From assembly GCF_003367375.1 (NCBI RefSeq), contig NZ_CP031416.1, positions 2,859,501-2,923,500 of the forward strand: a stretch of 64,000 bases of DNA. The letters are read 5' to 3'. The translations under genes and the position numbers were made by a program. Of this stretch, positions 41,084 to 63,668 are shown piece after piece. The notes beneath the pieces are model-generated. The model made no database searches and was not told the origin of the DNA. It saw only the letters and a list, made by a program, of their open reading frames with translations. The stretch's first letter is position 1, and each line of letters starts with the position of its first letter. Origin of the DNA: Gallaecimonas mangrovi. Its GTDB lineage: Bacteria > Pseudomonadota > Gammaproteobacteria > Enterobacterales > Gallaecimonadaceae.

Positions 41084-42277
41084 TTAACCGAACGGTTTGT
41101 CGATAGAAACCGCGGGCTCGGTGAACCAGCGCGGGCCGCTGTCGGTCATGTAGAAATGGTCTTCAAGGCGCACCCCAAACTCACCGGGCACCACAATCAT
41201 CGGCTCATTGGAAAACACCATGCCCGATGCCAACGGCAGCGGGTTGTCTTTAACCAGATAGGGCCATTCATGAATATCCATGCCCAGACCATGGCCGGTG
41301 CGGTGCGGCAGCCCCGGCAAGGTGTAATCTGGCCCCAGGCCGTCTTCTTCTAGTGCCTTGCGCGCCGCAGCGTCAACGTCGCCACAGGGCTTACCAAGCT
41401 GGGCAGCAGCAAAGGCGGCCAGTTGCGCTTTTTTCTCCGAGGCCCAAACCGCTTTTATTTTATCGCTGACCTCGCCAAAGGCGTAAGTGCGAGTGATATC
41501 AGATAGATAGCCTTTGACCTTACAACCGGTGTCAATCAGCACCAGATCGCCTTTTTTCAGCACTTGCGGATCTTTAACCCCATGGGGGAAGGAGCTGGCA
41601 ACACCAAACAGCACAATACAAAAGTAAGAGCCGCTGGCCCCCACTTTTTGGTGGGCCTGGTTGATAAAGCGCTCCACCTCAAGGGTGGTAATGCCTTCAT
41701 GCAAAATGCTGGCAGCCGCCTTGTGCACTTCCATGGTCATGGTCATGGCTTTTTGAATAAGGGCAATTTCCGCCGCTGACTTGTGCATGCGGCAATGGGC
41801 GCTGACCTCACCACCATTAATGATGTTGAGCGCTGGCGCGGCCTTTTGCATGCCATCAACCATAAAAAAGGCGGTGGCTTCATCAACAGCCAGGGTGCTA
41901 CCGGCAAATTTTGATACCAGCAATTGATAGGGGCTTTCGTGCTCATGCCAACCATAGATAGGGGCATCAATCAGCAGCCGCTCTTTAATCGAGTCGATTT
42001 CAAAATCGGGCACCAGGTAGCAAAGCTCACCCTGCTGGGTCAGCAAGGCCCCCACCAAACGTTCGCTGGGGTACCAATCCAGGCCGGTGAAATAACTTAA
42101 GTTGGTACCTGCGTTTAAATAGAACGCATCAATGCCTTGGGCCTGCATGTAGCGCGTGGCTTTTTCAATACGGGCCTGGTGCTCGTCAAGGCTGATAGCC
42201 TCGGCGTCGGTGGTCATGTCTTGCAAATCGGCAAGCGCCTGCTCGATGCTTTTTGTGCCAATACCGCTTGAGGTCAT
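41084..42277 (-). CDS. M24 metallopeptidase, Xaa-Pro aminopeptidase/dipeptidase type
   Basis: 397 residues from the ATG at 42277 (AAGGA five bases upstream). The N-terminal creatinase-like domain (about 30-155) is followed by the pita-bread fold with all metal ligands: two Asp in LIDTGCKVKGYLSDITRTYAFG, His in HRTGHGLGMDIHE, Glu in VFSNEPMI and Glu in GVRLEDHFY. It releases residues adjacent to proline and has no signal peptide, so it acts in the cytoplasm. It follows the GH127 gene by 45 bp; here I infer a role in cutting imported proline/hydroxyproline-rich peptides. Confidence 0.88.
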   Translation of the reverse strand: MTSSGIGTKSIEQALADLQDMTTDAEAISLDEHQARIEKATRYMQAQGIDAFYLNAGTNLSYFTGLDWYPSERLVGALLTQQGELCYLVPDFEIDSIKERLLIDAPIYGWHEHESPYQLLVSKFAGSTLAVDEATAFFMVDGMQKAAPALNIINGGEVSAHCRMHKSAAEIALIQKAMTMTMEVHKAAASILHEGITTLEVERFINQAHQKVGASGSYFCIVLFGVASSFPHGVKDPQVLKKGDLVLIDTGCKVKGYLSDITRTYAFGEVSDKIKAVWASEKKAQLAAFAAAQLGKPCGDVDAAARKALEEDGLGPDYTLPGLPHRTGHGLGMDIHEWPYLVKDNPLPLASGMVFSNEPMIVVPGEFGVRLEDHFYMTDSGPRWFTEPAVSIDKPFG

Positions 42278-42322
42278 GATTTTCCTTAGTCGTTGCAAAG
42301 GCGGCCCTTGGGCCGCCACTCG

Positions 42323-44731
42323 TTAGATAGTTTGTTGATGTTTAGGCTTAAACAGCAGCACCCCGAATACCGGGCCGGCGGTGTTGCCTTTTTGTGGCTC
42401 AAACCGCACCTTGATGCTGTCTTTGCCTTGGGTCAGATGTTCGGGAATGTCGTATTCCACGTCGAAGAACTGCCCTGGCTTGTTGAAGTTCAGGGTCTGG
42501 GTGGCAATGCGCTGACCGTCTACCAGTATATAGAAGACCCGGTTACGCTCCTCGCCCCAATAGGTGGCCTGCAGCTTAAGTGGGCCGGGCGCCGTTTTAA
42601 AGGTAAAGGAGAAGAAACCGCCGGTGCGGGCATCACGGCCATTGCGGCCCCGGTACACCACCGGATAACTGATCTCAGACTCCAGTTTATGGTCGCGCTC
42701 GGCCTGCATTTCCCCTAGGTGCATGACATCAACCGAACGGGCAGCCAAGTCTTTCAAACGCTCTTGCTCGGCAGCATAAGCCACTTCTTCCTTGGCCCAC
42801 TGGGCATCGTCAAAACGTTTAAAGTACACGGCGCTGCGGCGTTTATGGTTGGCATAAAACGGCGAGAAGGTCATGTCGCCGGGGCGACCAATACCGTCGG
42901 TTTTATACTCAAGTTCACTGCTTTGGGCTTTAAAGGCGCCCAGCAAATCGCTGCCCACCAGCGCCGGGGCGGTGCCGTCAAACTTGTCGTCAACGCTACC
43001 TAAGTCAGCGGCCATCACCAAAGGCCCACGCAGCACCGCAACGACGCTGTCATCACCTTGGGTACCTTCCAAACGCAGCTTCATCGGTAAATCCAGGGTG
43101 ACCTTGTCACCGGCTTTCCAGCGTTTTTCCAAATACACGTAGCCCTTGTCTTGGCTGGCCTCTACCGGCTTGCCGTTAACCTTTAGTTGCCAGTCGTCGC
43201 CAGCCCAGCCAGGAATACGCATCGCCAGTACAAAGGCCTTTTCAGCCTGGTCGATATTGAGGGTTATTTGGCCGTCGTTGGGGTAGCGGGTGTCGAGGGT
43301 GAAAGCGGCCTGGCCGTTTTGCCATTTGGCTTTACTGGGAATATAGAGGTTTACAAATAAGGTGTTGGCGCTTTCCCAAAACACCGAGTCGCCATGCTTG
43401 GCGTTACTTTCCATACCGGTACCGGTACAACACCAGAAGCTATCAAAGGGGGTGGAATGTTCCCGCACTGCCCCTGACATCAGCGGCATCATGTAGGTCA
43501 CCATGCCAGACTCAGGTTCAATTTGCGCCAGAATATGGTTCAGGTGGTTACGCTCATAAAAGTCAAAATAAGCGCCATTGATGTTCCAGCTATAAAGGTG
43601 GCGGGTGAGCTTGAGCATGTTGTAGCTGTTACAGCCTTCACAGGTTTGCTCGGTAATGTGGTTGGCAATGGCGTCGGGTTCGTAGAAGTATTCCCGGTCA
43701 GCATTACCGCCAATCACATAGGAATGATGCTGGGTAACCACATCCCAAAAAAAGCTCGGCGCCGTGCCTTTACGCACTTCGCCGGTTAGCTCGTGAATAC
43801 GGGCCAGGCCAATCAGTTTCGGAATTTGGGTGTTGGCGTGCAGGTTTGCCAGCTGGTCTTTTTTATCGGCTAACGGGTCTAACACCTTGCGGTGATAGAG
43901 CTTCTCGGCCATAGCCAGCCAACGTTTGTCGTTGGTGCGGGCATAAAGCTCGGCAAAGCTTTCATTAATGCCGCCGTGCTCGCAATCAAGCACCTTTTGT
44001 ACCTGGGCATCACTGAGCGGTGCAAAAACCCATTCAATGTATCCCCCCAGTTTCACGCCAACCGTAATAGCCTGGTCCAGGCCACAATGCTTGTGGGCGT
44101 CCAGCAAACCGGCATAGAGCTTGTGCCAGTTATAAAGCGGCACCCAGCAACCGTTTAAGTCAAAGCCCGCGGAGCGAATGTCGCCGGAGCGGATCTCGGG
44201 GAAGATTTCTTTGCCGTCAACAATGGTTTTGTCTTTGCGCTTACGGGTAAAACCCGCCACATAGCCATCACCTTGGGCATTTTGTACTTCGGTAAGCTCA
44301 TCGATGATGTAAATCAGCCGCTGCTTGGCCCGTTCGTCACCGGTTTGCGAATACAAATGCGCCAGTGCCGACATGTAATGGCCAAGGCTATGGCCGGCAA
44401 TGGTGTCTGACTCCCAGCCGCCGTAAACGGCGCCTTTGGGCTTTAAACCGGCAAACTCGCGGAAGTTATGCAAGAAGCGGTCGGGCTCGAGTTCAAACAG
44501 GTAGCGAGTGTTTGCGTCCTGCGCGGTTTTAAAGGCGGAGGGCTGTAGCCGAATATCGCGCAAGGGCAACGGTTGAGCCGTTTTCGGCAGCGGCTTTGCG
44601 TCGGCGACTAAGGCCGTTTTTTGCCCAGAGCAAGCAGTGAGTGAAATAGCGGAAAGTGCCGACAATGCTGCAAGTGCGGAAGCACCTTTTAGTACATCAC
44701 GGCGGCTGGTGTTCACACAGAGTTCGCACAT
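42323..44731 (-). CDS. GH127-family (DUF1680) beta-L-arabinofuranosidase-like lipoprotein
   Basis: 802 residues. A Tat-type leader TSRRDVLKG runs into a lipobox LTAC (Cys34). The (alpha/alpha)6 catalytic domain carries GGWESDTIAGHSLGHYMSA, DLNGCWVPLYNWHKLYAGLLDA, and both parts of the zinc-thiolate active site known from HypBA1: CEGCN and WCCTGTGMESNAK. A C-terminal beta domain extends to about 800. HypBA1-type enzymes remove beta-L-arabinofuranose from hydroxyproline-linked arabino-oligosaccharides of extensin. Its promoter is shared with the divergent DUF885 genes and contains a GntR box. The exact glycan is inferred. Confidence 0.85.
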   Translation of the reverse strand: MCELCVNTSRRDVLKGASALAALSALSAISLTACSGQKTALVADAKPLPKTAQPLPLRDIRLQPSAFKTAQDANTRYLFELEPDRFLHNFREFAGLKPKGAVYGGWESDTIAGHSLGHYMSALAHLYSQTGDERAKQRLIYIIDELTEVQNAQGDGYVAGFTRKRKDKTIVDGKEIFPEIRSGDIRSAGFDLNGCWVPLYNWHKLYAGLLDAHKHCGLDQAITVGVKLGGYIEWVFAPLSDAQVQKVLDCEHGGINESFAELYARTNDKRWLAMAEKLYHRKVLDPLADKKDQLANLHANTQIPKLIGLARIHELTGEVRKGTAPSFFWDVVTQHHSYVIGGNADREYFYEPDAIANHITEQTCEGCNSYNMLKLTRHLYSWNINGAYFDFYERNHLNHILAQIEPESGMVTYMMPLMSGAVREHSTPFDSFWCCTGTGMESNAKHGDSVFWESANTLFVNLYIPSKAKWQNGQAAFTLDTRYPNDGQITLNIDQAEKAFVLAMRIPGWAGDDWQLKVNGKPVEASQDKGYVYLEKRWKAGDKVTLDLPMKLRLEGTQGDDSVVAVLRGPLVMAADLGSVDDKFDGTAPALVGSDLLGAFKAQSSELEYKTDGIGRPGDMTFSPFYANHKRRSAVYFKRFDDAQWAKEEVAYAAEQERLKDLAARSVDVMHLGEMQAERDHKLESEISYPVVYRGRNGRDARTGGFFSFTFKTAPGPLKLQATYWGEERNRVFYILVDGQRIATQTLNFNKPGQFFDVEYDIPEHLTQGKDSIKVRFEPQKGNTAGPVFGVLLFKPKHQQTI

Positions 44732-44785: not shown

Positions 44786-44806
44786 TTATACGGTATACGA
44801 TATATA
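44786..44806. promoter_or_regulatory. GntR-box in divergent GH127 / DUF885 promoter
   Basis: TATACGGTATACGATATA: a GTATAC core with near-symmetric flanks (ATACG / GATAT). On the minus strand it reads TATATCGTATACC, matching the sites at 48601, 61573 and 62917. It lies between the two divergent starts (44731 and 44839). Confidence 0.6.
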
Positions 44807-44838
44807 GACTAACAATCTAATTCAAGGAGGTAGACGTG

Positions 44839-46590
44839 ATGAAACTATCAACAGTACCCAGAAGTCTGTTGCTGACCTCATTGCTGGCAGTTTTACCCGC
44901 TACGCAGGCAATGGCCTCGAGCGCTGATGAAGCCTTTAAAAAGCTCTATACCAGCGAGTGGAAATGGCGAGAGTCACAGCAGTTAGTTGATGATGAAAGC
45001 AGTAACAGCTTTTCAAGCTCACTGCCCCATGTAGATGAAGCAACTCAACAGGCGCATCTGAAATATTGGCAAGGTGTTGAAGCCAAGCTGGCCAAAATTG
45101 ACCAAAGCAAACTCACTTACAAGGACGAGGTCAGCTACAAGGTTTATAAAGAACAGCTTGATACCATGATGACCGACATCAAGTTCAAGGTGTATCAGCG
45201 CCCCCTGTCTGGCGATACGTCTTTTTGGGGTGATTTGACCTACGTTCCCCAAAGTGATTTTCACTCCGAACAAGATTATCGTGACTACCTAAAATGGCTG
45301 TCGAGCATGCCCCGTTATTTCGATGAAAACATCGATAACATGCGCGCCGGTCTAAAACGCGGTTTTACCCTGCCTAAAGTGACATTAAAAGGCCGGGACG
45401 TTACCGCACAAACCGTGGTTGATGCCAAACCGAAGGACAACCCGTTTTTCGCACCGTTCACCCATTACCCGGCCCATATGCCGAAAAGCGTGCAAGACGA
45501 GCTCACTAAAGAAGGCCTTGCCGCAATGGCCAAGTACGTTATTCCGGCTCATGAACACGTGCTGACCTTCTTGCGAAAGGAATACATTCCTGGCGCTGTT
45601 ACCTCGATAGCCGCTTACGACCTGCCTAACGGTAAAGCCTTCTACCAGTCGCAAATCAAGGAATACTCCACCCTTGATATGACGCCTACCCAGATCCACA
45701 ACATCGGTCTTGAAGAAGTAGCCAAAATACATAAGCGTATGCTTAAAGTGATGCATCAAGTGCACTTTAAAGGCGACTTGCATCAGTTCTTCCATTTCTT
45801 GCGTACCGATCCGCAGTTCTATGCCAAAACCCCGCAAGAGCTGTTAAACCACGCCGCCTGGATAGCCAAAGAGTTTGACGGTGTTGCCGACAAATGGTTT
45901 GGCCGCCTGCCACGGCGCCGCTTCGCCATAGTGCCGGTACCGCCCGATATCGCGCCTTTCTATACTGGTGGCCGCGGTGGCCCTGGCATCTATCTGGTTA
46001 ACACCTACGATTTGCCGTCTCGCCCGCTCTATTCTCTGCCGGCGCTGACAATGCATGAATCGGCCCCAGGCCACGCCTTCCAAATGCCTTTGGCACAAGA
46101 AAACAAAGATTTGCCGGTGTTCCGCCGCAATTACTTTATTTCAGGCTATGGCGAAGGCTGGGCGGTGTATTGCGAGTCTTTGGGTGAAGAAATGGGTATT
46201 TATCACACGCCATATGAAGTGTTTGGCATGCTCAATTACCAAATGTGGCGCGCCGCACGTTTAGTAGTGGATACCGGTATTCATGCTCAAGGCTGGAGTC
46301 GCAAGCAGGCCCAAGATTACCTACTGCAAAACACCTCGTTGTCCAAGCATGAGATAACCACTGAAGTAGACCGTTATATCGCCTGGCCTGGCCAAGCAGT
46401 GTCTTACTACTTAGGTGAAATGGCCATTAAAAAAGACCGTGCTCGCGCCGAGAAAGCACTAGGTCGCAAATTTGATATCCGTCACTTCCACGACACCGTG
46501 CTGCAAATGGGTTCGGTACCGCTGGACGTCTTGTCTGCGCGTATCGACAAGTTCATTAAAGACGGTGGCCCCTCCCCTTATAAGGACTAA
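44839..46590 (+). CDS. DUF885-family secreted peptidase-like protein (copy 1)
   Basis: 583 residues from the ATG at 44839, with AAGGAGG eight bases upstream; a GTG one codon earlier is possible. Signal peptide to about residue 27 (TQAMASS). The DUF885 domain has the gluzincin-like motif MHESAPGHAFQM and the downstream YGEGWAVYCESLGEEMG with Glu ligands, plus RYIAWPGQAVSYYLGEM. A zinc peptidase acting in the periplasm or outer membrane is the usual inference; no substrate is established here. It is followed after 3 bp by a paralogue. Confidence 0.85.
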   Translation: MKLSTVPRSLLLTSLLAVLPATQAMASSADEAFKKLYTSEWKWRESQQLVDDESSNSFSSSLPHVDEATQQAHLKYWQGVEAKLAKIDQSKLTYKDEVSYKVYKEQLDTMMTDIKFKVYQRPLSGDTSFWGDLTYVPQSDFHSEQDYRDYLKWLSSMPRYFDENIDNMRAGLKRGFTLPKVTLKGRDVTAQTVVDAKPKDNPFFAPFTHYPAHMPKSVQDELTKEGLAAMAKYVIPAHEHVLTFLRKEYIPGAVTSIAAYDLPNGKAFYQSQIKEYSTLDMTPTQIHNIGLEEVAKIHKRMLKVMHQVHFKGDLHQFFHFLRTDPQFYAKTPQELLNHAAWIAKEFDGVADKWFGRLPRRRFAIVPVPPDIAPFYTGGRGGPGIYLVNTYDLPSRPLYSLPALTMHESAPGHAFQMPLAQENKDLPVFRRNYFISGYGEGWAVYCESLGEEMGIYHTPYEVFGMLNYQMWRAARLVVDTGIHAQGWSRKQAQDYLLQNTSLSKHEITTEVDRYIAWPGQAVSYYLGEMAIKKDRARAEKALGRKFDIRHFHDTVLQMGSVPLDVLSARIDKFIKDGGPSPYKD

Positions 46591-46593: not shown

Positions 46594-48330
46594 ATGCTAG
46601 AGAATGTTCGCAGTCACAGGAGGTGTGCCTGCGGCATTCTCCTGACATTATCCGTTCTAGGTTTAAGCCCGGCCGCCATGGCCAATTCCTTGGCCGGGCT
46701 TATCAACCGCTATCAACACCTTGAGCAAGACAACCCACAAAGCTGGCCTGGTTTGGGCAATAACAACCAAGCGCAGAAAAAGGCCGGGTTGCAGGCATTG
46801 CAAAGCGCCGTTAACGCGCTGCCCCGCCAGCACTTATCCTTTTCTGAAAAAATGAGTACCAAGGTGCTGACCTGGCGGCTTAACACCGAGCTGCAGGCGC
46901 TGGCATTTCATAGTGACCGCATCGCCTTTGATAACGGCGATGGCTTTTTTAATACCGCCACCTATACCGCCCAGGTCACCCGTATTCAAAATCCGAGCGA
47001 TGCCCAGCACTGGCTTGACCGGCTGCAACAGCTGCCGGCTTACTACCAGCTACAAATGGCGCGCATGCAAAAAGGTATCGACAGCGGTTTTACCCAGCCA
47101 AAACCAACGGTGACATCGGTTATTAACATCCTCAGCGCCCGTATCAAGGCGCCGCTAACCCAAAGCCCACTGTTGGAACCCATTGACCATTCAACGGCCC
47201 TGAGCGCCGCACAAAAAGCCCAGTGGCGGGATAAAGTGGTGGCGCTGTTAGCCGCCAAGGTGCGCCCCAGTGAAAAGGCACTACTGGCCTTTTTTAAAAA
47301 CCAGTACCTGCCCCATGCCCGGCCCAAACTGGCGGCACGCAGCCTACCCAATGGTGAGCGCTACTATCCGTTTTTGGTGCGTAAAATGACCACCACCGAC
47401 ATGACACCCGCTGAGGTTTTTGCCTTAGGGCAAGGGCAAATCAAGGTCATTCGGGCGAAGATGCAAGCCATTTTGGCAGCGCAGGGCTTTGATGGCAGCG
47501 TCCATGACTATGCCCAAAAGCTGCTCAATGACCCCAATAACTTTGCCGCAGATTTACCGACCTTTATCAAAGATGCCCGCGCCGTGGGTAAGCAGCTTGA
47601 TTACCTACTGCCCCGTTACTTTGGCCGCTTGCCAAGGCTCACCTGGGGCATTGAACAAAAACCGCCGTCATTGGATGCGTCTTCAGGTGGCTACTTCCTT
47701 GGCGACCCGAAAACCGGCAACGCTGGCGCGGTGATGGTGGGCACCCAGTCTTACCACGACCCGCTCTTTAGTCTGCCGGCCTGGGTGATGCACGAAGGCG
47801 TACCCGGCCACCATCTGCAAATTGCTCTGGCCCAGGAAAATAGCGCCCTGCCCTTTTTCCAACGCAGCGACGATGTCACCGCTTTTGTCGAGGGATGGGC
47901 ACTGTATTCCGAAACCCTGGGTAACGAAATGGGTATCTATGACACCCCAGCCAAGCGCTTTGGTCAGCTTTCGATGCAAATGTGGCGCGCTTGTCGCTTG
48001 GTGATGGATACCGGTATTCATTGGTACGGCTGGTCGGCCGCCAAGGCCCGCCAGTGCCTTGCCGACAACACCGCGCTACCGGCAAAGGTGATTGATGGCG
48101 AAGTACAACGCTACATTGCCTGGCCCGGTCAGGCGCTGGCCTACTACGTGGGGCAGATGGCGTTTGAAAAAGCCCGCCAGCGGGCGCAAGCGGCCTTGGG
48201 CGATAAGTTTGATATTCGAGCCTTTCACGACGCGGTGCTGCAAATGGGCTCGGTGCCGTTAACGGTGCTAAGTGCTGTTACCGATCACTTTATTGCCACC
48301 GGCGGCCGCGACCCTTATTCCACGATGTAA
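46594..48330 (+). CDS. DUF885-family secreted peptidase-like protein (copy 2)
   Basis: 578 residues. Signal peptide to about residue 31 (SPAAMANS). Same motifs as the upstream gene: MHEGVPGHHLQIALAQE, FVEGWALYSETLGNEMGIYDTP and RYIAWPGQALAYYVGQMAFEKARQRA. The two proteins are clearly paralogues but have diverged widely in the N-terminal half, which suggests different peptide specificities rather than a recent duplication. Three bp separate the genes; AAGGA overlaps the upstream stop region. Confidence 0.85.
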   Translation: MLENVRSHRRCACGILLTLSVLGLSPAAMANSLAGLINRYQHLEQDNPQSWPGLGNNNQAQKKAGLQALQSAVNALPRQHLSFSEKMSTKVLTWRLNTELQALAFHSDRIAFDNGDGFFNTATYTAQVTRIQNPSDAQHWLDRLQQLPAYYQLQMARMQKGIDSGFTQPKPTVTSVINILSARIKAPLTQSPLLEPIDHSTALSAAQKAQWRDKVVALLAAKVRPSEKALLAFFKNQYLPHARPKLAARSLPNGERYYPFLVRKMTTTDMTPAEVFALGQGQIKVIRAKMQAILAAQGFDGSVHDYAQKLLNDPNNFAADLPTFIKDARAVGKQLDYLLPRYFGRLPRLTWGIEQKPPSLDASSGGYFLGDPKTGNAGAVMVGTQSYHDPLFSLPAWVMHEGVPGHHLQIALAQENSALPFFQRSDDVTAFVEGWALYSETLGNEMGIYDTPAKRFGQLSMQMWRACRLVMDTGIHWYGWSAAKARQCLADNTALPAKVIDGEVQRYIAWPGQALAYYVGQMAFEKARQRAQAALGDKFDIRAFHDAVLQMGSVPLTVLSAVTDHFIATGGRDPYSTM

Positions 48331-48600: not shown

Positions 48601-48630
48601 ATATCGTATACTATATTTGACATACGGTAT
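48601..48630. promoter_or_regulatory. GntR-box of the TonB-receptor promoter
   Basis: ATATCGTATACTATAT (48601-48616), followed eight bases of spacing-core later by CATACGGTAT (48621-48630), which resembles the arm of the site at 44786. The pair may be two half-overlapping operators. Confidence 0.58.
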
Positions 48631-48733: not shown

Positions 48734-51700
48734 ATGAAAACGAAAAGACCTATACCAAAGGGGGTTCTGACTATTTGTGCATTGCTAGGGACCACAACGC
48801 CATTTATTACGATGGCGCAATCATCCGACGCTGCTGAAAGTCAGGCTCAAAATCAGGATATCGCGGTAAAGTCACAATCTTCTAAGCAACCAGAGAAGGT
48901 CAGCAAAGAAAAAGCTGATAAGAAAAAAGATACCGAAACCATCACTGTTACCGGCACCCGTATTCAACGGGCGGAGTATTCCTCCAACAGCCCGGTATCC
49001 ACCATTGATGCCAAAGAAATGAAAATGCAGGGCACCACTAACGTGGAAGAAGCCCTGAGCCGCATGCCTCAGTTCACTGCCGATAACGACGAATACGTCT
49101 CTAACGGCTCAGACGGCACCGCGCAAATCAACTTGCGCAACCTAGGTTCAAACCGGGTACTGACCCTCATTAACGGTCAACGCATTCTGCCCACCATGGC
49201 CATGGACATGAACTTCATTCCATCGAGCTTGGTAAAACGGGTTGATGTGGTGACCGGCGGCGCTTCTGCGGTATACGGTTCTGACGCCATTTCGGGTGTG
49301 GTTAACTTCATCATGAAGGACAACCTGCAAGGTTTTACCTTCGACACCCAAGCCAGTACTTACCAGCACAACAACGACAATAGCGAAGTACGCAGCATCG
49401 TTAGCGATGCCGGTTACGACAACGCTGACAGCTCGGTATGGGATGGTGAGAAATACAACTTCAGTCTGGCAGGCGGTACCAACTTCTTAGATGGCCGCGG
49501 CAACATCACCTTCTACGGTACTTACCGCAAAACCAACCCGGTAACCCAAGACCAGCGTGACTATTCTGCCTGTGCGCTCTCTGCCAATAGCTCACTGAAC
49601 GGTTATGCCTGTAGCGGTTCCAGTAACAACCCCTATGGTCGTTTCTATGTGCTAGACGGCGATAACGCCGGCGCCGACCTTGCCAACGCCAAAGACGGTT
49701 CTAAAACCTTCAACGACTACGACAGCAGCTACCTGTACAACTATACGCCGCTTAACTACACCCAACGTGAAGATAAGCGCTACACCGCTGGCTACATGGC
49801 CCATTACGACTTTGATAATGGTACCCGCGTTACCAGCAGCGTAATGTACATGCACGACCGTAGCTTCTCGCAGGTGGCGCCATCTGCCCTGTGGTTTGGT
49901 TCTGATTTCTCCATCAACTGTGACAACCCATTGATGAGCGACCAGCAAGCCGAGGCCCTTTGTGGCAGCGCTGCCGGTACCAGCACTGATGTCAGTACTT
50001 ATGTGGGTTATCGCCTGGACGGTGAAAACTCGCGCCCACGCCGCGACGACTTGCAGCACAGCGATTACCGTTTCACCTTGGGTGTGAATGGTGACATCAC
50101 CGACAACATCACCTACAACGCCAGCTACCTGCATTCAGAAGCCCATTATTCTGAGCAGTATCAAAATGACGTTGACCAAACCAAAGCGGCTAACGCGCTG
50201 TTAGCGGTCACCGACAGCGACGGTAATGTGGTGTGTCAATCGGTTGTTGATGGCACCGACCCTGACTGTGTGCCCTTGGATGTGTTCTCGGCGGAAGGTA
50301 GCAGCATGTCTGATGCCGCCCTTGACTACATATTGACCACCAGCGAAACCAACAGCAAACAAACCATGGATGTCTACAGCGCCTACAGCCAAATTGATTT
50401 GGACGGCTATGGCATCAAGGTACCTTGGGCAAACTTGGGCCCAGCGTTGGTTGTAGGTGGTGAGCACCGCCGTGAAATGTACAAATTCAACGCCGATGCC
50501 GTTTCTATCGACAACGGTTATGAAAACTCCTACGGCGTTATCAAGGTTGACGAAGCCTACACCGAATTGGACGTGCCTTTGGTTGAAGACGCCCCTGGCG
50601 TGAAATACTTAGGTGTGAACGGTGGTTATCGCTACTCTTCCTACAAAAACCACGATGACGAAGGTGACGACAGTAAGTACAACGCCAATACCTTCAAGTT
50701 TGAGCTGACTTACGCACCTAACGACGACGTACGTTTTCGCGGTAGCTTCAACAAAGCCATCCGTGCCCCGAACGTCACCGAGCTGTTTGCGTCACAAAGC
50801 CTGGGTAACTACTCCGGTACTGATCCCTGCGCCGGCTCTGATCCTACAGCCACCATGGCCGAGTGTGAAAACACCGGCGTAAGCTCCTCTCAGTACGGCA
50901 GCATTGTTGAGTGTCCTTCTGACCAATGTGTGGCCCAATACGGTGGTAACCCTGATCTGAAACCGGAAACCGCTAAAACCCTGACCTTGGGTGTGGTTCT
51001 GACACCGCAGTTCATTCCGAACTTCAGCCTGTCTATCGACTACTACCACATCAAAGTGGACGACTACATCAGTTCGGTCGACCCCACCTTGATCCTCAGC
51101 CAATGTCTGAACACCGGCGACAGCTACTACTGTAACCTGATTCACCGTAACCCAAGCTCTGGAGCCCTGTTCGGTACCACCGGTTATGTTGTGTCTACCA
51201 CCCTTAACACCGGTTACCTGCGTACCTCCGGTTTTGACGTTAACACCAACTACGACCTCGACCTGAACGGCCTGGGCTCGTTGAACTTCAACCTGGTAGG
51301 TTCACTGCTGACCGACATGACCACCGAGCCACTGCCTGGCTACGGTAGCTACAACTGTAAAGGCCTGTACGGCCCGACCTGTGGTCTGCCTCAGCCAGAA
51401 TGGCGCCACAACGCCCGTGTTAGCTGGTCTACCCCTTGGTACGACCTGGACGTATCACTGATGTGGCGTTATATCGGCAAAGTTGACCTGTCCAGCAACA
51501 CTGACAACCCGCTGCTGGCAAGCGACGACACTTACTATGTGAGCGATCACATCGGCTCATACAGCTACTTCGACCTGTCGGGTTCCATGCCGGTAACCGA
51601 CAACATTCAAGTACGTGCCGGTATCAACAACATGTTTGACCGCGATCCGCCGATCATTGTCAGCGATGTCGCTACCTCTTACACCAACGGCAATACCTAC

Positions 51701-51760
51701 CCCGGTGTTTACGATCCTTTAGGTCGTCAAATCTTCCTGGGCGTAACTGCCAAGTTCTAA
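48734..51760 (+). CDS. TonB-dependent outer-membrane receptor
   Basis: 1008 residues. Signal peptide ending near TMAQSS (about 30), a charged Lys/Glu linker, a TonB-box-like ETITVTGTRI (about 74-83), the plug domain (NVEEALSRMPQF, LRNLGSNRVLTLINGQR, GGASAVYGSDAISGVVNFIMKD) and a large barrel ending in aromatic KF (GVTAKF). The type resembles receptors of the peptide/oligosaccharide class rather than siderophore receptors. Its position between peptidases and glycosidases and the GntR box suggest uptake of released glycopeptides or oligosaccharides. GAGGG precedes the ATG. Confidence 0.88.
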   Translation: MKTKRPIPKGVLTICALLGTTTPFITMAQSSDAAESQAQNQDIAVKSQSSKQPEKVSKEKADKKKDTETITVTGTRIQRAEYSSNSPVSTIDAKEMKMQGTTNVEEALSRMPQFTADNDEYVSNGSDGTAQINLRNLGSNRVLTLINGQRILPTMAMDMNFIPSSLVKRVDVVTGGASAVYGSDAISGVVNFIMKDNLQGFTFDTQASTYQHNNDNSEVRSIVSDAGYDNADSSVWDGEKYNFSLAGGTNFLDGRGNITFYGTYRKTNPVTQDQRDYSACALSANSSLNGYACSGSSNNPYGRFYVLDGDNAGADLANAKDGSKTFNDYDSSYLYNYTPLNYTQREDKRYTAGYMAHYDFDNGTRVTSSVMYMHDRSFSQVAPSALWFGSDFSINCDNPLMSDQQAEALCGSAAGTSTDVSTYVGYRLDGENSRPRRDDLQHSDYRFTLGVNGDITDNITYNASYLHSEAHYSEQYQNDVDQTKAANALLAVTDSDGNVVCQSVVDGTDPDCVPLDVFSAEGSSMSDAALDYILTTSETNSKQTMDVYSAYSQIDLDGYGIKVPWANLGPALVVGGEHRREMYKFNADAVSIDNGYENSYGVIKVDEAYTELDVPLVEDAPGVKYLGVNGGYRYSSYKNHDDEGDDSKYNANTFKFELTYAPNDDVRFRGSFNKAIRAPNVTELFASQSLGNYSGTDPCAGSDPTATMAECENTGVSSSQYGSIVECPSDQCVAQYGGNPDLKPETAKTLTLGVVLTPQFIPNFSLSIDYYHIKVDDYISSVDPTLILSQCLNTGDSYYCNLIHRNPSSGALFGTTGYVVSTTLNTGYLRTSGFDVNTNYDLDLNGLGSLNFNLVGSLLTDMTTEPLPGYGSYNCKGLYGPTCGLPQPEWRHNARVSWSTPWYDLDVSLMWRYIGKVDLSSNTDNPLLASDDTYYVSDHIGSYSYFDLSGSMPVTDNIQVRAGINNMFDRDPPIIVSDVATSYTNGNTYPGVYDPLGRQIFLGVTAKF

Positions 51761-54952: not shown

Positions 54953-58150
<3,198 letters not shown>

Positions 58151-58158
58151 AGGCGGAC

Positions 58159-59595
58159 TTAAGCCTTAAGGTAGGTCGTCCGGGTAACGGTATAAAAGGT
58201 TTTGGCTGCCCTGCCCTGTTCTCTGGCGCCATAGCTCGAGGCTCCCACGCCGCCAAAGGGCACGTGGTAGTCGATACCGGCCGTGGGCAGGTTAATCATT
58301 AACATGCCGGCCCGCGCATAGCGCTTAAAGTGCTCAGCATATTTCAAAGAACCGGTGCAAAGCCCCGCCGACAAGCCAAAGCGGCTGTCGTTAACCATGG
58401 CAAGGCCAGCGTCGTAATCGGCGACGCGAAACACTGCGGCTACCGGCCCAAAGATCTCTTCTTGGGCGATAGGGTCAGCGGCGTTGGCATGGTCAAACAA
58501 GGTTGGGGCAAAGAAGCACTCCGGTAGCGCCTCGGCGGTGCCACCAAATACCAGTCTGGCGCCGGGGTGCTGCTCCATGGCCGCCGTTTGGCGGCTAATC
58601 AGCGCTTTTTGGTTCGCTGATGCCAGCGGCCCAATATGGGTATCGGCGGCCAGCGGATCGCCAACCTTATGTTCAGCAACCCGCTCACTCAGCCGGGCCA
58701 CAAAAGCGTCAGCGATGGCCTCTTCAACAATAATGCGAGAGGTGGCAGTGCAGCGCTGGCCAGCGGCTAAAAAGGCGCCGTTAAGGGCGGTTTCCACGGC
58801 GCTATTAAGGTCACTGTCTTTGAGTACCAACAGCGCGTTAACGCCGCCCATTTCGGTTTGCACCGCGACACCGCGCTCGGCAGCGGCCATACGTACTTTT
58901 TTGCCGGTAGCCACAGAGCCGGTAAAACTCAGCGCGTTAACCTCGGGGTGATGGCAAATCGCCGCCCCAGTTTCACCGCCGCCTAAAACCATATTCACGG
59001 CGCCCGGCAGCACGCCGACCTCACCAATAATGTCCATTAACGCCTGGGCGGTGGCCGAGGATAACTCCGACGGCTTCCACACCACGGTATTGCCGTAAGC
59101 CAGGGCCGGGGCAATTTTCCAGGCTGGAATGGCGATGGGGAAATTCCACGGCGTGATTTGGCCAATAACGCCTAGCGGCGCGTATTCAATTTCAACCATG
59201 GCGCCGTTGCGAGTGGACTCTAAACGCTCACCAACAATGCGCAGCGCCTCACCCGCGAAAAAGCCGAAAATGCGCGCCGCCCGGCCGACTTCCCCTTTGG
59301 CGTCGCCCAGGGTTTTACCGGTTTCACGGGCGATAAGCTTGGCCAGCTCATCACTGCGGGCATTGATAAGCGATTGCGCCCTTAATAAGGCGTCTGACCG
59401 CGCTTCAATACCCTGGTCGCGAAAACGCAAAAAGGCAGCTTTGGCGGCGGCGACGGCATGACAAACCAGCGCTTGGTCAGCGGCAGGAATAGCCACTTTG
59501 AGGTCAGCAGCGTTAGCGGGGTTGTACTGGGCGAGTGTCGCCTCACCCAGTACCTTTTCACCACCGATAACATGCGAAAGTTCAATAACTTGCAT
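58159..59595 (-). CDS. Aldehyde dehydrogenase, probable 2-oxoglutarate semialdehyde dehydrogenase
   Basis: 478 residues. NAD(P)+-dependent ALDH with oxyanion Asn in TPWNFP (Asn151), cofactor Lys174 (VWKPSE), general base Glu248 (QTEMGG) and nucleophile Cys282 (AAGQRCTATSR). Such enzymes oxidise 2,5-dioxopentanoate to 2-oxoglutarate in hydroxyproline, arabinose and glucarate pathways. Its position 12 bp after the hydroxyproline epimerase gene and in one operon with the DapA-type deaminase argues for the last step of 4-hydroxyproline breakdown. Substrate is inferred from context. Confidence 0.85.
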   Translation of the reverse strand: MQVIELSHVIGGEKVLGEATLAQYNPANAADLKVAIPAADQALVCHAVAAAKAAFLRFRDQGIEARSDALLRAQSLINARSDELAKLIARETGKTLGDAKGEVGRAARIFGFFAGEALRIVGERLESTRNGAMVEIEYAPLGVIGQITPWNFPIAIPAWKIAPALAYGNTVVWKPSELSSATAQALMDIIGEVGVLPGAVNMVLGGGETGAAICHHPEVNALSFTGSVATGKKVRMAAAERGVAVQTEMGGVNALLVLKDSDLNSAVETALNGAFLAAGQRCTATSRIIVEEAIADAFVARLSERVAEHKVGDPLAADTHIGPLASANQKALISRQTAAMEQHPGARLVFGGTAEALPECFFAPTLFDHANAADPIAQEEIFGPVAAVFRVADYDAGLAMVNDSRFGLSAGLCTGSLKYAEHFKRYARAGMLMINLPTAGIDYHVPFGGVGASSYGAREQGRAAKTFYTVTRTTYLKA

Positions 59596-59607: not shown

Positions 59608-60606
59608 TTACACCACCAAGAAGCCTTCGGGGAAAGGCTCAGCATCGTCTATCCAGATTTGGTTAAACCCGGTTGAAAAGGCGGTGCCTTGAATGGATGG
59701 CACTATGGCGCTGTTACCCGCCAGCTCGGTGATGGCTTCAACACGGCCGATAAAACGGCTTTTGATGTAGCTTTCGTGAATGAAGGTATCGCCGGCTTTA
59801 AGCTTGCCCTTGGCGGCTAACTGCGCCATGCGGGCAGAGGTACCGGTGCCACAGGGGCTGCGGTCGATGGCTTTATCGCCATAGAACACCGCATTACGGC
59901 CATGGGCGTCACTAGAGGCCGGTTTGTCGGCCCAAAGCACGTGGCTAACGCCGTTAATGGCAGGGTTTAGCGGATGCACCGGCTTAAACTGCTGCTGCAC
60001 GGCGGCGCGAATTTTTGGGCTCAGGCGCAAAATGTCGCTAGCGCTCATGCTGTCGAGGCCGTCATAACCGGGCTGAGGGTCAACAATGGCGTAGTAGTTA
60101 CCGCCGTAAGAAACATCAACGGTGAGTTCGCCAAAGTCGGGCACATCAACCTTAAGACCTTCAATAGCCAAATAGCTGGGCACATTACGCAGCTTGACCC
60201 AGTCGACCTTGGCGCCGGTCTTTTGGTATTCCACTTCAATGAGCCCGGCCGGCGCTTCCATCACCAAACGGCCTTCGGTTTTCGGCTGAATAAGGCCGTG
60301 TTCCAGGCCAAAGGTGATGATGCCAATAGAGCCATGGCCACACATCGGCAGGCAGCCACTGGTTTCAATAAAAATGACCCCAAAATCCGCTTTCGGATCC
60401 TTGGGCGGATAAATAAAGCCGCCGGACATCATGTCGTGTCCACGCGGCTCAAACATCAACCCTTTACGGATCCAATCGAATTCGGCCATGAAATGCTGGC
60501 GCATTTCACTGAGGTTATTGCCTTGTAAGATGGGATGGCCACCCACCACCAACCGCACCGGGTTGCCAGCAGTGTGACCATCAATACAGAAAAAGGTGTG
60601 CCTCAT
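59608..60606 (-). CDS. 4-hydroxyproline 2-epimerase (proline-racemase family)
   Basis: 332 residues. Diaminopimelate-epimerase-like fold with two catalytic cysteines: Cys89 in PMCGHGSIG and Cys252 in DRSPCGTGTSA. The Cys/Cys pair separates racemases/epimerases from the Cys/Thr trans-3-hydroxyproline dehydratases. The EPRGHDMMSGG segment and the locus context favour 4-hydroxyproline over proline as substrate. It converts trans-4-hydroxy-L-proline to cis-4-hydroxy-D-proline, the first step of the pathway. Cytoplasmic. It follows the DapA-like gene by 23 bp. Confidence 0.88.
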   Translation of the reverse strand: MRHTFFCIDGHTAGNPVRLVVGGHPILQGNNLSEMRQHFMAEFDWIRKGLMFEPRGHDMMSGGFIYPPKDPKADFGVIFIETSGCLPMCGHGSIGIITFGLEHGLIQPKTEGRLVMEAPAGLIEVEYQKTGAKVDWVKLRNVPSYLAIEGLKVDVPDFGELTVDVSYGGNYYAIVDPQPGYDGLDSMSASDILRLSPKIRAAVQQQFKPVHPLNPAINGVSHVLWADKPASSDAHGRNAVFYGDKAIDRSPCGTGTSARMAQLAAKGKLKAGDTFIHESYIKSRFIGRVEAITELAGNSAIVPSIQGTAFSTGFNQIWIDDAEPFPEGFLVV

Positions 60607-60629: not shown

Positions 60630-61526
60630 TTACCCTTTGGTAGGACGGGTAGCAGCAGCTTTTTCAACCATGGCAATAACGTCTTCGCGGCGTTTGCCAG
60701 CCAGTGGCAGGCGCGGCATACGTACACGTTCGCTACCACGACCCATGATTTGCTCTGACAATTTAATGGCTTGTACCAAGTCGTGGCCAGCATCCAGGTG
60801 CAGCAACGGCATGAACCAGCGATAGATCTCAAGGGCACGGGCCATATCACCGGCTTTAAAGGCACGAATCAGTTCAACCGATTCTTGCGGGAAGGCGGAA
60901 GTCAGGCCAGATACCCAGGCACAGGCACCCAGCATCATGCCTTCAAGGGCAACGTCATCAAGACCGGCCAACACGTGGAAACGGTCGCCATAGGCATTGA
61001 GCAAGTCAGTGTAACGACGGGTATCGGAAGCACTTTCTTTAATGGCAACAATGTTGTCTACCTCAACCAACTTGGCCAAGGAATCGATGCTGACATTGAC
61101 CCGGTAAGAGGTGGGGTTGTTGTACAGCATGATAGGCAGGTTGGTTTCGGCAGCAACGGCCTTAAAGTGAGCGATAAGCTCGTCTTCGGTGGGCACATAA
61201 ACCATGGCCGGCAGCAGCATCAGCGCATCAGCGCCGGCTTTTTCTGCGTCTTTAGCAAAGGCAATGGCGCGCTCGGTGGTAAATTCTGAGACACCGGCAA
61301 TAACGGGTTTGTCGCCTTTGGCTTCAACAGCGGCGGCCACAACTTTGCGTTTTTCTTCTGGCTCCAGTGAGTTGTTCTCACCACAGGTACCAATAATAAC
61401 CAAACCGTCGACACCGTCGTTCAACAGATTGGTAAAACCCTGTTGGGTGGCATCAAAATCAATCGCAAGGCTTTCATCAAACTGCGTTGTTGCTGCAGGA
61501 AATACACCGGACCATTGCATACTCAT
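60630..61526 (-). CDS. DapA-family lyase, probable 1-pyrroline-4-hydroxy-2-carboxylate deaminase
   Basis: 298 residues, class I aldolase fold of the DHDPS/NAL superfamily. Schiff-base Lys163 (VAIKESASD), Tyr135 (LYNNPTSYR) and the GTCGENNSLEPEEK substrate loop are visible. A biosynthetic DapA role is unlikely in this operon; the linked epimerase, D-amino-acid dehydrogenase and aldehyde dehydrogenase fit the deaminase that makes 2,5-dioxopentanoate from pyrroline-4-hydroxy-2-carboxylate. GGGA precedes the ATG. First gene of the operon, with a GntR box about 50 bp upstream. Confidence 0.85.
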   Translation of the reverse strand: MSMQWSGVFPAATTQFDESLAIDFDATQQGFTNLLNDGVDGLVIIGTCGENNSLEPEEKRKVVAAAVEAKGDKPVIAGVSEFTTERAIAFAKDAEKAGADALMLLPAMVYVPTEDELIAHFKAVAAETNLPIMLYNNPTSYRVNVSIDSLAKLVEVDNIVAIKESASDTRRYTDLLNAYGDRFHVLAGLDDVALEGMMLGACAWVSGLTSAFPQESVELIRAFKAGDMARALEIYRWFMPLLHLDAGHDLVQAIKLSEQIMGRGSERVRMPRLPLAGKRREDVIAMVEKAAATRPTKG

Positions 61527-61572: not shown

Positions 61573-61586
61573 TATATCGTATACCA
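61573..61586. promoter_or_regulatory. GntR-box upstream of the DapA-like gene
   Basis: TATATCGTATACC, matching the site shared by the GH127/DUF885 promoter in all thirteen positions of the minus-strand reading. It lies 47-60 bp before the start codon at 61526, in a range that would block RNA polymerase. Confidence 0.62.
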
Positions 61587-61651
61587 AAACCAAACAAGAT
61601 GAAACTTTTCTTAACCATCAAAAACTAGAGCTAGGCCACAGATGGCGTGGC

Positions 61652-62887
61652 TTAGCAGCCAAATCGGGACAGCGAAAAAGCCGTTAACGATTGCGACAAT
61701 TTTTTGTCACCCATCAGTTGCGCCATTAATTTCCCGGTAACAGGTGCCAAGGTCAGCCCCAGGTGTTGGTGGCCAAAGGCGTAGTAAAGGTTATTGGCTT
61801 TATCGCTTTGCCCCATCGCTGGCAGGTAGTCGGGTAAGGTGGGGCGGGCGCCATGCCATTGGCTGATGTTGTCGGTTAGCGGCAGGCCAAGCTCAGCGCT
61901 GTGGCGCAATAACTGCTGCCATTTACGCGGGTCGGGTTTAGCGTCAAGGGATGACAGCTCAACAAAGCTGCAGGCACGAAGCCGGTTCTCGAAACGGGTG
62001 ACAATAAGAGAGCGGTCTTCAAACACCACTGGCGGCAATTCCGCTGGCCAGCGGGCAGGATCCCAGTCGGCTTCGATGTGATAACCCCGTTCGGCCAGCA
62101 GTGGCACCCCGGGGTGAATGTCGGCCAGCACTTTGGCAGAAGCGGCGCCACCGCAGACTAAAATTTGGTCAAAACTTTCAAAACCATCGATAACCGCCCT
62201 GCCCTCACGTAAGCGCAGTTTGCCCACCGCCAATTCTCGCCAGCGGCCTCCGGCGGCAATAAAGGCGGCTTTAAGCTCGGCAGCCAAGGTTTTATGGCGG
62301 ATGATTTGGCCGGTACCAGAAAAGGCGATACCCGCGTGCATGGGTTCACTCAGTTGCTGCTCAATATGGCTTAACTGGCTTGCCTCAAGGTCAGTAAAAG
62401 TGGCCTTACCGATATCGGCGCCTTGCCATGCCGCCCGGCTTTTTTCGCTGCTTTTAGGGCTTTCCCAAAGCACCCAATGGCCTTGTTGCTGATACTGCGG
62501 CTGCGCGCTGTTAAGCTCTGCTGCCAAGGCTTGCCAGTGCGTCGCGGCGTCAATGACCAGCTCAGTTAACGCCGCCTTACCCTTGGCAAAATTTCCCGGG
62601 GTTGAGGCTTTAAGATAGCGCCAGATCCAACCGCCGATCCCCGGTGTGGAGAAATCGAAATCCAGGGCACCGCCAACACGAAATAAACGTTTAGGGGCTG
62701 ACTTAATGGCCGCAAAGGACGCCAGCGGCGTCACTTGCTCGGTGGCGATATGGCCGGCGTTATTCCACGAAGCGGCGTTTAGTTCGGGGTCGTTATCCAG
62801 CACCGTGACATCCATGCCCTGACGCTGAAGAAAATAACCGCAGCAGCGGCCAACAATACCGCCACCAATAATTGCAACACTGGGCAC
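61652..62887 (-). CDS. DadA-like FAD-dependent D-amino-acid dehydrogenase (probable D-hydroxyproline dehydrogenase)
   Basis: 411 residues with a GTG start (GGGGTGA upstream; the only ATG nearby is followed by a stop). N-terminal FAD motif VAIIGGGIVGRCCGYFLQRQGMDVTVLD, then NAASWNNAGHIATEQVTPLAS typical of the DadA branch, and a C-terminal YYAFGHQHLGLTLAPVTGKLMAQL. It should oxidise cis-4-hydroxy-D-proline to 1-pyrroline-4-hydroxy-2-carboxylate and pass electrons to a carrier. It has its own promoter with a GntR box, 126 bp from the deaminase gene, and sits directly before gntR's terminator. Confidence 0.85.
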   Translation of the reverse strand: MPSVAIIGGGIVGRCCGYFLQRQGMDVTVLDNDPELNAASWNNAGHIATEQVTPLASFAAIKSAPKRLFRVGGALDFDFSTPGIGGWIWRYLKASTPGNFAKGKAALTELVIDAATHWQALAAELNSAQPQYQQQGHWVLWESPKSSEKSRAAWQGADIGKATFTDLEASQLSHIEQQLSEPMHAGIAFSGTGQIIRHKTLAAELKAAFIAAGGRWRELAVGKLRLREGRAVIDGFESFDQILVCGGAASAKVLADIHPGVPLLAERGYHIEADWDPARWPAELPPVVFEDRSLIVTRFENRLRACSFVELSSLDAKPDPRKWQQLLRHSAELGLPLTDNISQWHGARPTLPDYLPAMGQSDKANNLYYAFGHQHLGLTLAPVTGKLMAQLMGDKKLSQSLTAFSLSRFGC

Positions 62888-62916
62888 TCGCTCACCCCAT
62901 CACACCTGAAATATAA

Positions 62917-62945
62917 ATTCGTATACTATATATGAAATACGAAAT
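62917..62945. promoter_or_regulatory. GntR-box upstream of the FAD dehydrogenase
   Basis: AATTCGTATACTATATATG, followed by AAATACGAAAT. The GTATAC core and TATAT flank match the site at 48601-48616 at most positions. It lies 30-58 bp before the GTG start at 62887. Confidence 0.6.
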
Positions 62946-62984: not shown

Positions 62985-63014
62985 TAAAAAAAGCCAACCG
63001 GCAGGTTGGCTTTT
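62985..63014 (-). terminator. Terminator of gntR
   Basis: Stem AAGCCAACC / GGTTGGCTT with loop GGCA, and a T-run on the minus strand. It resembles the two 34-bp terminators at 36641 and 41048 but is not identical. Confidence 0.85.
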
Positions 63015-63017
63015 GCT

Positions 63018-63668
63018 TTATTCGTTCGGCAATTGCTGACGTAAGTCGTCTAGCGTGCCCTTGGTATGATCTTTAATGAGCTTTTTCACCAATTTGGCAT
63101 CCCTTGCCATCCAAGCATCAAAGATCTGTTGATGCTCGTAAAAGGCGCTCTCTTCACGATTAGGTGGCTCAAGGTGTTTGCGCACATAACGCTCAGACAA
63201 CAAGTGCAGTTTTTCCAGCACGTTTTGCGTCACACTGCGGTTGGCCGGGGCGGTCAGTGCTAAGTGAAAGGCGCGGTTGATGGTTACAGCGTCAGGGGAG
63301 CATTCGTCAGACAGCTCACGCAGTTTCAAAAACACCTTCTCGGCGTAAGCGCGCTGCTCGTCATCAGCCAGCTTACAGGCTTCGGCTGCCGCTTCTGGCT
63401 CTACCGTTAGGCGAAGGTGAAACACATCTTCAGCTTCATCGACCGTTAAAGGACGAACCAAAAAACCCCGGTTAGGGTGCGAGATCAACAGTCCGTCGTG
63501 TTCGAGGCGGGTCAGAGCTTCACGCAGCGGGATCTTACTGACCCCAAGGCCTTTGGAAAGCGCATCTTGTCTGATCGGCTTGGACGGCAGCATGTCATTA
63601 GACAAGATCCGTTCACGCAAGATCTCATATGCCTGTTCAGACAAAGTCTTGACCACTATAGATGACAT
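63018..63668 (-). CDS. GntR-family regulator, FCD (FadR-like) subfamily
   Basis: 216 residues. N-terminal winged HTH (about 5-70: LSEQAYEILRERILSNDMLPSKPIRQDALSKGLGVSKIPLREALTRLEHDGLLIS) and an all-helical FCD effector domain (about 75-210) with RLTVEPEAA, the NRAFHLALTAPANRS metal-site region and ESAFYEHQQIFDAWMARDAKL. FCD regulators usually bind a carboxylate or amino acid. Its location beside the hydroxyproline genes and a GTATAC motif before every nearby operon suggest that it represses this locus until a hydroxyproline-pathway intermediate appears. Confidence 0.88.
   Translation of the reverse strand: MSSIVVKTLSEQAYEILRERILSNDMLPSKPIRQDALSKGLGVSKIPLREALTRLEHDGLLISHPNRGFLVRPLTVDEAEDVFHLRLTVEPEAAAEACKLADDEQRAYAEKVFLKLRELSDECSPDAVTINRAFHLALTAPANRSVTQNVLEKLHLLSERYVRKHLEPPNREESAFYEHQQIFDAWMARDAKLVKKLIKDHTKGTLDDLRQQLPNE

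Follow-up and report, generated by a model that had tools for sequence, protein, structure and literature searches.

In the papers compared here, bacterial use of hydroxyproline-rich proteins has been described either from the sugar side, as the release of arabinose, or from collagen. Here we analyse a locus of Gallaecimonas mangrovi in which glycosidases, peptidases and a 4-hydroxyproline pathway lie together, in a 64-kb stretch of DNA (the window, positions 2859501-2923500) within a 4.07-Mb single-contig genome. We read it, with a probability of about 0.78, as a locus for the utilisation of hydroxyproline-rich glycoproteins under a HypR-type GntR repressor. At the level of sequence the genes are present, an operator-like palindrome precedes most of the transcription units and much of the set is conserved across genera. 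Statements on published systems refer to the portions of the cited papers that were compared.

The HypR regulon of Proteobacteria resembles this locus in its GntR regulator, its hypE/O/D/H set, a TonB receptor and proline peptidases (PMC5343134). The regulator is autoregulated in most of the genomes studied, the receptor occurs in several Alteromonadales and a COG531-type permease in one species (PMC5343134). The published regulons name secreted collagenases upstream, whereas here we find GH146, GH2 and DUF5695 proteins, with GH27 in relatives; the main text of PMC5343134 contains no glycosidase wording, its supplementary regulon tables and motif figure being outside the comparison. The collagen utilisation cluster of Colwellia BB5 is also similar, with a size of about 21 kb, a TonB receptor, a hydroxyproline epimerase pathway and proline peptidases, but where the present locus has glycosidases it encodes an M9 collagenase and peptidyl-prolyl isomerases, and its regulator is described as PutR (PMC7883544). 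In Streptomyces coelicolor the GntR-like repressor HypR governs a hydroxyproline pathway together with a secreted degradative enzyme, in this case the collagenase SCO5912, through the motif CTNTGC(A/C)ATGTCAC (PMC6608401).

On the sugar side, XeHypBA1, XeHypBA2 and XeHypAA of Xanthomonas euvesicatoria strip arabinose from hydroxyproline-rich glycoproteins and adjoin a prolyl oligopeptidase gene, which is broken there; they differ in having GH121 and GH43 partners, and the main text mentions neither a racemase nor TonB (PMC6085000). XeHypBA1 is classed as GH146 (PMC10850190). HypBA1, HypBA2 and HypAA of Bifidobacterium longum likewise include beta-L-arabinofuranosidases acting on hydroxyproline-rich glycoproteins, but arabinose is the carbon source, transport is by an ABC transporter and the portions compared describe no hydroxyproline catabolism (PMC10850190, PMC7263609, PMC6085000). 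Latescibacteria have been proposed to degrade such glycoproteins via GH127, with no linked hydroxyproline pathway in the text compared (PMC4454575), and the main text of an eLife neighbourhood study of the racemase superfamily has no glycosidase, plant, arabinose, extensin or TonB wording.

The first-pass annotation, made from the letters of the window, had called the combination not a described system. This is too strong, with HypR regulons (PMC5343134) and the Colwellia collagen cluster (PMC7883544) in print. A published HypR-type regulon with plant-glycoprotein glycosidases was not found in the open-access literature, the supplementary tables of PMC5343134 lying outside its scope. By analogy, the locus looks like a glycoprotein variant of the known HypR/collagen-type clusters that joins the sugar-stripping and hydroxyproline lines. 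It is not a polysaccharide utilisation locus of the Bacteroidetes type, which is defined by a SusC/SusD pair: there is a single TonB receptor and no SusD family member among the locus proteins scanned.

The twelve genes that had been listed within 22.6 kb (41084-63668) were all confirmed in place by a check of open reading frames, and their families by Pfam and NCBIfam profiles. On the minus strand the order is NhaC, GntR, DadA, DapA, epimerase, aldehyde dehydrogenase (ALDH), GH2 and DUF5695; the plus strand carries the TonB receptor and two DUF885 genes, from which the minus-strand GH146-like and M24 genes diverge. The protein in the hypE role (59608..60606, minus strand) scores 422 bits with Pro_racemase and 552 bits with NF010578, over the equivalog cut-off of 376, and keeps the Cys89/Cys252 pair, so the proposed epimerase of the proline racemase family holds good as a 4-hydroxyproline 2-epimerase; it is the sole match to that family in the genome. 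Three minus-strand neighbours are candidates for the remaining steps by family and place only. These are a DapA-family (DHDPS) protein in the hypD role (60630..61526, PF00701, 194 bits), an FAD-dependent DadA-like protein of the DAO family as cis-4-hydroxy-D-proline dehydrogenase in the hypO role (61652..62887, PF01266, 174 bits) and the ALDH as 2,5-dioxopentanoate dehydrogenase in the hypH role (58159..59595, PF00171, 464 bits), whose best NCBIfam model is alpha-ketoglutaric semialdehyde dehydrogenase at 439 bits, below the cut-off of 770. A lysine-pathway function of the DapA homologue, which had been named as a possible refutation, was rejected: two further DHDPS-family genes lie elsewhere, one of them stronger at 307 bits. 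The GntR/FCD protein (63018..63668, minus strand; PF00392, 54 bits; PF07729, 78 bits) is the candidate HypR.

A palindromic operator, about ATATCGTATACGATAT (consensus ATAT(A/C)GTATAC(G/T)ATAT or a near copy), precedes the GH127/DUF885, TonB receptor, DapA, DadA, GntR and NhaC transporter genes, at six sites. These are ATACGGTATACGATAT between the divergent GH146-like and DUF885 genes (44788..44803, 24.3 bits), ATATCGTATACTATAT before the TonB receptor (48601..48616, 27.4 bits), ATATCGTATACCAAAA before DapA (61574..61589, 20.7 bits), AATTCGTATACTATAT before DadA (62916..62931, 23.6 bits), AAACATTATACTATAT before GntR (63772..63787, 20.9 bits) and, outside the window, ATACCGTATACGATTT before the NhaC gene (65464-65479, 24.2 bits). 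As in HypR regulons, the GntR regulator thus adjoins hypE/O/D/H homologues and shares a palindromic operator with hyp genes. The pattern TATMGTATACKATA occurs with at most two mismatches at 12 places in the whole genome, five of them within about 21 kb at the locus, and read backwards at nine; the TonB receptor operator is the only site in the genome that matches without mismatch.

The six locus sites alone were used to build a matrix, with which we searched 48 proteobacterial stretches (933,785 bp). Two of these come from a genome of the same genus (G001) and many from near kin within Sphingomonas, so that the matches are not independent. Matches in the same context were counted once, a match between divergent genes was counted for both genes, and Shewanella mangrovi, a Bacteroidetes locus and the acidobacterial loci were scanned apart. 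At 9 bits, 96 of the 116 matches lie at most 400 bp upstream of genes of the set, a territory that makes up 13.4% of the bases. None of 200 palindrome-preserving permutations of the half-site columns reached 96 at this threshold (mean 8.7, maximum 59). At other thresholds, from 8 to 12 bits, the counts before set genes run from 102/127 down to 83/95, the permutation being at 9 bits only. Most matches precede DUF5695 (24), GH127-type (23), DapA (21) and TonB receptor (20) genes, followed by GntR (11), DadA (10), DUF885 (9), M24 (6), DPP-IV (5) and GH27 (4), with one each for GH2, NhaC, epimerase and Ldh_2. As controls, 24 acidobacterial loci (415,217 bp) gave 14 matches, and stretches from elsewhere in this genome (90,002 bp) gave two.

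Five genera bear the operator both on the glycan side (GH127-type, GH27 or DUF5695) and, at DapA or DadA, on the hydroxyproline (Hyp) side: Alteromonas, Stakelama, Sphingomonas, Asticcacaulis and Acetobacter. The DUF5695 and DapA genes of Acetobacter cerevisiae are on different contigs, each with an operator site, and in Acetobacter malorum the two sides share a contig at a distance of about 12 kb. The two sides are also on different contigs in Acetobacter persici, where a site before a fragmentary DapA match was left uncounted. Outside the Proteobacteria, Candidatus Acidiferrum typicum has three operator-like sites of 15.3 to 20.0 bits (stretch positions 2299, 9513 and 17464), of which one is some 320 bp upstream of DUF5695 and another some 440 bp upstream of a DPP-IV-like match; the remaining acidobacterial loci have weaker matches only.

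The set also appears to be inherited together. Relatives of DUF5695 were sought in genome contigs, which gave 54 loci, and 49 locus genomes were searched for the epimerase, five fragmentary loci (L049, L051, L055, L057, L058) being omitted. The epimerase is present at 60% identity or more in 27 of these 49 genomes, comprising 26 of 29 proteobacterial genomes and one Bacteroidetes metagenome-assembled genome. Among 249 genomes of the family of Sphingomonas phyllosphaerae FA2 (two lists of 249 that share recurring genomes and were taken as the same draw), DUF5695 is found in 10, the epimerase (E <=1e-60) in 33 and both in 10; Fisher's test, uncorrected for kinship, gives 4.4e-10 with the centre genome and 3.3e-9 without it. 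The two genes lie within 17 kb on the same contig in seven of the ten genomes. In the genus of the window two of five genomes have DUF5695 with a strong epimerase, and one other has a weak epimerase-family match.

Gene content was tabulated for 30 genomes, all chosen for DUF5695, using bit-score cut-offs; seven of them combine stretches on different contigs. The counts are GntR 27, DUF885 24, GH127-type 23, epimerase 22, DadA 18, DapA 18, receptor 18, amino-acid permease 17, DPP-IV 16, M24 16, Ldh_2 16, GH2 13, GH27 8, ALDH 2 and NhaC 2. The epimerase count leaves out L027, where the gene is truncated at the stretch end, and in L031, L033, L035 and L038 it lies a few kb past the examined end. 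Relatives carry GH27, DPP-IV, Ldh_2 and the permease inside the set. In the Asticcacaulis taihuensis cluster (L015:4982-7495) a GH27 alpha-galactosidase and an Ldh_2 family dehydrogenase stand beside the hydroxyproline genes. In a midpoint-rooted phylogeny of DUF5695, the three gammaproteobacterial proteins group in a single clade (100/100) within the proteobacterial half, and a transfer between classes is possible.

The first-pass annotation saw no inner-membrane transporter, and there is none within 41084-63668. A candidate NhaC-family carrier (PF03553, 201 bits, minus strand) lies just beyond, at 63926..65350, with an operator; only its 3' end (63926..64000) is in the window. The gene adjoins the cluster also in G001 (82%) and in Alteromonas (69%), where it comes after an operator and a DUF885 gene. 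In its place the alphaproteobacterial genomes of the set encode an amino-acid permease. We take both to transport hydroxyproline or a small peptide.

DUF5695 (52234..54933, minus strand; PF18951, 1226 bits) is a protein of 899 amino acids with a signal-peptide-like N terminus; a GTG at 55008 would give 924 amino acids and is the less likely start. An AlphaFold2 model from 35 sequences (predicted local distance difference test, pLDDT, 86.6; predicted template modelling score 0.88) has beta-domains at the N and C termini and, between residues 391 and 777, 12 helices of at least 10 residues; within this helical part the loops 675-688, 697-705 and 752-757 are below pLDDT 50. Fourteen acidic residues are invariant in all 35 homologues. 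The model suggests that DUF5695 is probably a six-hairpin enzyme and a glycosidase. It could instead be a peptidase, lyase or binding protein, in a set that degrades Hyp peptides while the glycosidases act separately. This we consider unlikely, at about one chance in four. In its favour, neither a sequence search against solved structures (best E 0.16) nor a profile comparison with the GH127-type alignment (probability 0.1%) gave a match of weight, and a Pfam scan at a lax threshold matched DUF5695 alone. Helices between two beta-domains together with invariant acidic residues are what is expected of six-hairpin glycosidases, and GH127-type genes lie near DUF5695 in acidobacterial loci without Hyp genes nearby (such as L016, L020, L025 and L047); both argue for the glycosidase. 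In the open-access literature compared, DUF5695 is named in one paper only, on fungal regulators.

The arabinofuranosidase gene (42323..44731, minus strand) encodes a protein that matches Pfam GH127 (PF07944, 404 bits, with PF20736 and PF20620), with a Tat/lipoprotein-like N terminus and a C-terminal DUF6805. The first-pass annotation had assigned it to the GH127 HypBA1 type. Its closest solved chain is 5opj/BT0349, a GH146 enzyme, at 463.5 bits against 61.6 bits to HypBA1, and its nearest relatives and Glu/Cys residues place it with GH146, not with HypBA1-type GH127. Glu365, Cys367, Cys434 and Cys435 are invariant in 14/14 aligned homologues, in roles that we take to fit the family's zinc-thiolate site. 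GH127 and GH146 have their zinc-binding and catalytic residues in common, and the GH146 members XeHypBA1 and Bll4HypBA1 cleave Araf-beta1-Hyp (PMC10850190).

Seven of the pattern places are away from the locus and were scored with the matrix. The best-scoring of them, at 20.5 bits, is located about 170 bp upstream of a DPP-IV gene (L085:2683-4896), of a kind kept inside the cluster in other genera. The DPP-IV orthologues of genomes G002 and G003, both of which lack DUF5695, have no match of at least 9 bits in the stretches examined, that of G003 starting some 600 bases ahead of the gene; G004 gave no match at that level. A 19.1-bit site precedes the gene for a Tat-signal protein (L086:2541-4876), which is split by a frame change. 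Its counterpart in G001 (773 amino acids, no Pfam family besides the signal; L095:2667-4988) has a 22.7-bit site about 40 bp before it, and an M14-like peptidase gene comes after this intact gene. Of the other places, a 16.9-bit site is about 310 bp upstream of a gene for an AraC-type regulator, a 17.3-bit site is inside a short open reading frame without a Pfam family, and three score 10.4 to 13.2 bits.

Several results weigh against our reading of the locus. The G001 site just described is near DPP-IV but after that gene. In the proteobacterial scan 20 of the 116 matches have no evident target; the 22,520-bp Bacteroidetes locus gave nine matches, the best at 13.1 bits, and two places in the window away from the locus score 10.0 and 14.3 bits. 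The GH2 and DUF5695 genes have no operator of their own here and are located behind a terminator-like hairpin with a T-run (58111..58151, minus strand), so that their expression requires either read-through or a further promoter. At this ALDH-GH2 position G001 and Alteromonas confluentis have hairpins of different build, and the GH2-DUF5695 pair may be expressed at a lower level via read-through. In Sphingomonas an operator is directly at the DUF5695 gene, between it and a divergent GH127-type gene. Much of the gene set was found in related genomes across genera, but the ALDH and NhaC genes were matched beside the set in just two of 30 genomes, and three of the 29 proteobacterial DUF5695 genomes have no epimerase match. 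Shewanella mangrovi has DUF5695 adjoining a regulator (L005:9072-12607), no epimerase match in its genome and no strong operator (best 12.5 bits). Rhizomicrobium electricum lacks an epimerase match despite DUF5695, GH127-type, GH27, receptor, regulator, DUF885, M24 and operators, as does the draft genome of Sphingomonas endophytica NS334. In three of the ten family genomes DUF5695 and epimerase are far apart or on different contigs, and just three of 24 acidobacterial DUF5695 loci have an epimerase-family match nearby, at 31-32% identity. GH146 enzymes also act on arabinan and arabinogalactan protein (AGP) (PMC10850190). Finally, the genome has no match to L-arabinose isomerase, a family matched in 5 of 14 control genomes.

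In another reading the glycosidases are directed at pectic arabinan, rhamnogalacturonan or arabinogalactan and the hyp genes are separate, the regulator being common only as AGP holds some hydroxyproline. BT0349, the solved protein closest to the GH127-type enzyme, is described in a locus for rhamnogalacturonan I, GH2 beta-galactosidases act widely, and Rhizomicrobium retains the glycosidase half without an epimerase match. We find this improbable, since no pectinase, arabinanase or galactanase family is among the locus proteins scanned, DapA or DadA bears the operator in the five other genera named above, and M24, DUF885 and DPP-IV genes are also preceded by it in relatives and recur with the set. 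To our knowledge, a beta-L-arabinofuranosidase has no substrate in collagen. That the locus feeds on animal hydroxyproline from collagen or gelatin with accessory glycosidases, like the Alteromonadales HypR regulons with their collagenases, proline peptidases and TonB receptor (PMC5343134) and the Colwellia BB5 cluster (PMC7883544), is very improbable, as no M9 collagenase is found in the locus, nor in a genome search that matched no control genome either, and the names of several relatives mark them as Sphingomonas from leaves or plants.

If the locus does act on glycoproteins, the relatives bear on which ones. GH27 alpha-galactosidase matches occur in the loci of Asticcacaulis, Rhizomicrobium and some Sphingomonas. 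Extensin bears alpha-galactosyl-serine, which these matches fit, and extensin-like proteins are therefore favoured over AGP. We lean slightly towards this substrate; algal Hyp-glycoproteins are also possible.

For the released arabinose, the isomerase route was rejected, the genome having no match to the enzyme. An operon at about 711,000-723,900 (L082:5490-18367) encodes an arabinonate-dehydratase-type enzyme (841 bits, cut-off 882), an SDR sugar dehydrogenase, an ALDH, a galactose-epimerase (galM) type protein, a furanose-type YtfQ/YtfR-like ABC transporter, an AraD1 protein and a GH43, and is likely, from these families, to serve oxidative arabinose use. The oxidative arabinose and hydroxyproline pathways both reach 2,5-dioxopentanoate; if the operon is of this kind, arabinose and hydroxyproline would converge there. 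Its stretch has one match of 12.7 bits to the operator matrix, and none better.

The remaining proteins of the locus are as follows. The M24 Xaa-Pro-type metallopeptidase (41084..42319, minus strand, 411 amino acids; PF00557, 188 bits; PF01321, 66 bits) has no clear signal peptide and is probably cytoplasmic; homologues are present in DUF5695/HypE loci of other genera. The DUF885 proteins (plus strand, PF05960) contain the motifs HESAPGH at 407 (44836..46590, 500 bits) and HEGVPGHH at 400 (46594..48330, 442 bits), and the N terminus of the first resembles a signal peptide; they are probable secreted zinc peptidases. The TonB-dependent receptor (48734..51760, plus strand, 1008 amino acids; PF00593, 137 bits; PF07715, 84 bits) has 46-75% identical counterparts in the loci of relatives, and 27-28% in Acetobacter. 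The LacZ-type GH2 beta-galactosidase (54953..58096, minus strand) scores 1060 bits with NF052611 (cut-off 999) and has a lipoprotein-like N terminus; by eye, lipobox-like sequences are LSGC here and LTAC in the GH127-type protein. Adjacent to the locus, at 36691-40545, are genes for a cytochrome c, a GMC dehydrogenase and a gluconate-2-dehydrogenase subunit 3, with no operator match of at least 8 bits. This operon was rejected as a part of the system: it had no match in the 54 DUF5695 loci (E 1e-8), nor in a second locus comparison without loci L011-L020.

Taken together, the hydroxyproline pathway with glycosidases and imino-acid peptidases, as the first-pass annotation had interpreted the locus, stands as apparently co-regulated through a common operator and co-inherited, with the enzyme type, the novelty and the transporter corrected as above. 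In the mechanism that we propose, three secreted or lipid-anchored proteins, the GH146-like beta-L-arabinofuranosidase, the GH2 beta-galactosidase and DUF5695, would strip arabinose and galactose from the Hyp-linked glycans that extensin-like wall proteins of plants or algae carry. The TonB receptor would import peptides or glycopeptides. Cleavage beside imino acids would fall to the two secreted DUF885 proteins, the unlinked DPP-IV and the cytoplasmic M24 peptidase. The NhaC-family carrier, or the amino-acid permease in alphaproteobacteria, would take up hydroxyproline or small Hyp peptides, which the epimerase, DadA-like dehydrogenase, DapA-family deaminase and aldehyde dehydrogenase would convert to 2-oxoglutarate.

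Should the switch respond to hydroxyproline or one of its products, as reported for HypR of Sinorhizobium meliloti, the imino acid of the backbone would induce the enzymes that strip the sugars. More tentatively, and with somewhat less than even odds, this may be a widespread system in which a plant or algal wall glycoprotein is sensed by its backbone imino acid, deglycosylating glycosidases are induced and DUF5695 is a new glycoside hydrolase family for Hyp-O-glycans. The regulon appears to join glycan removal, peptide cutting and hydroxyproline catabolism in several bacterial genera. It gives DUF5695 and DUF885 a functional setting, and the operator motif can be used for mapping the regulon in many genomes.

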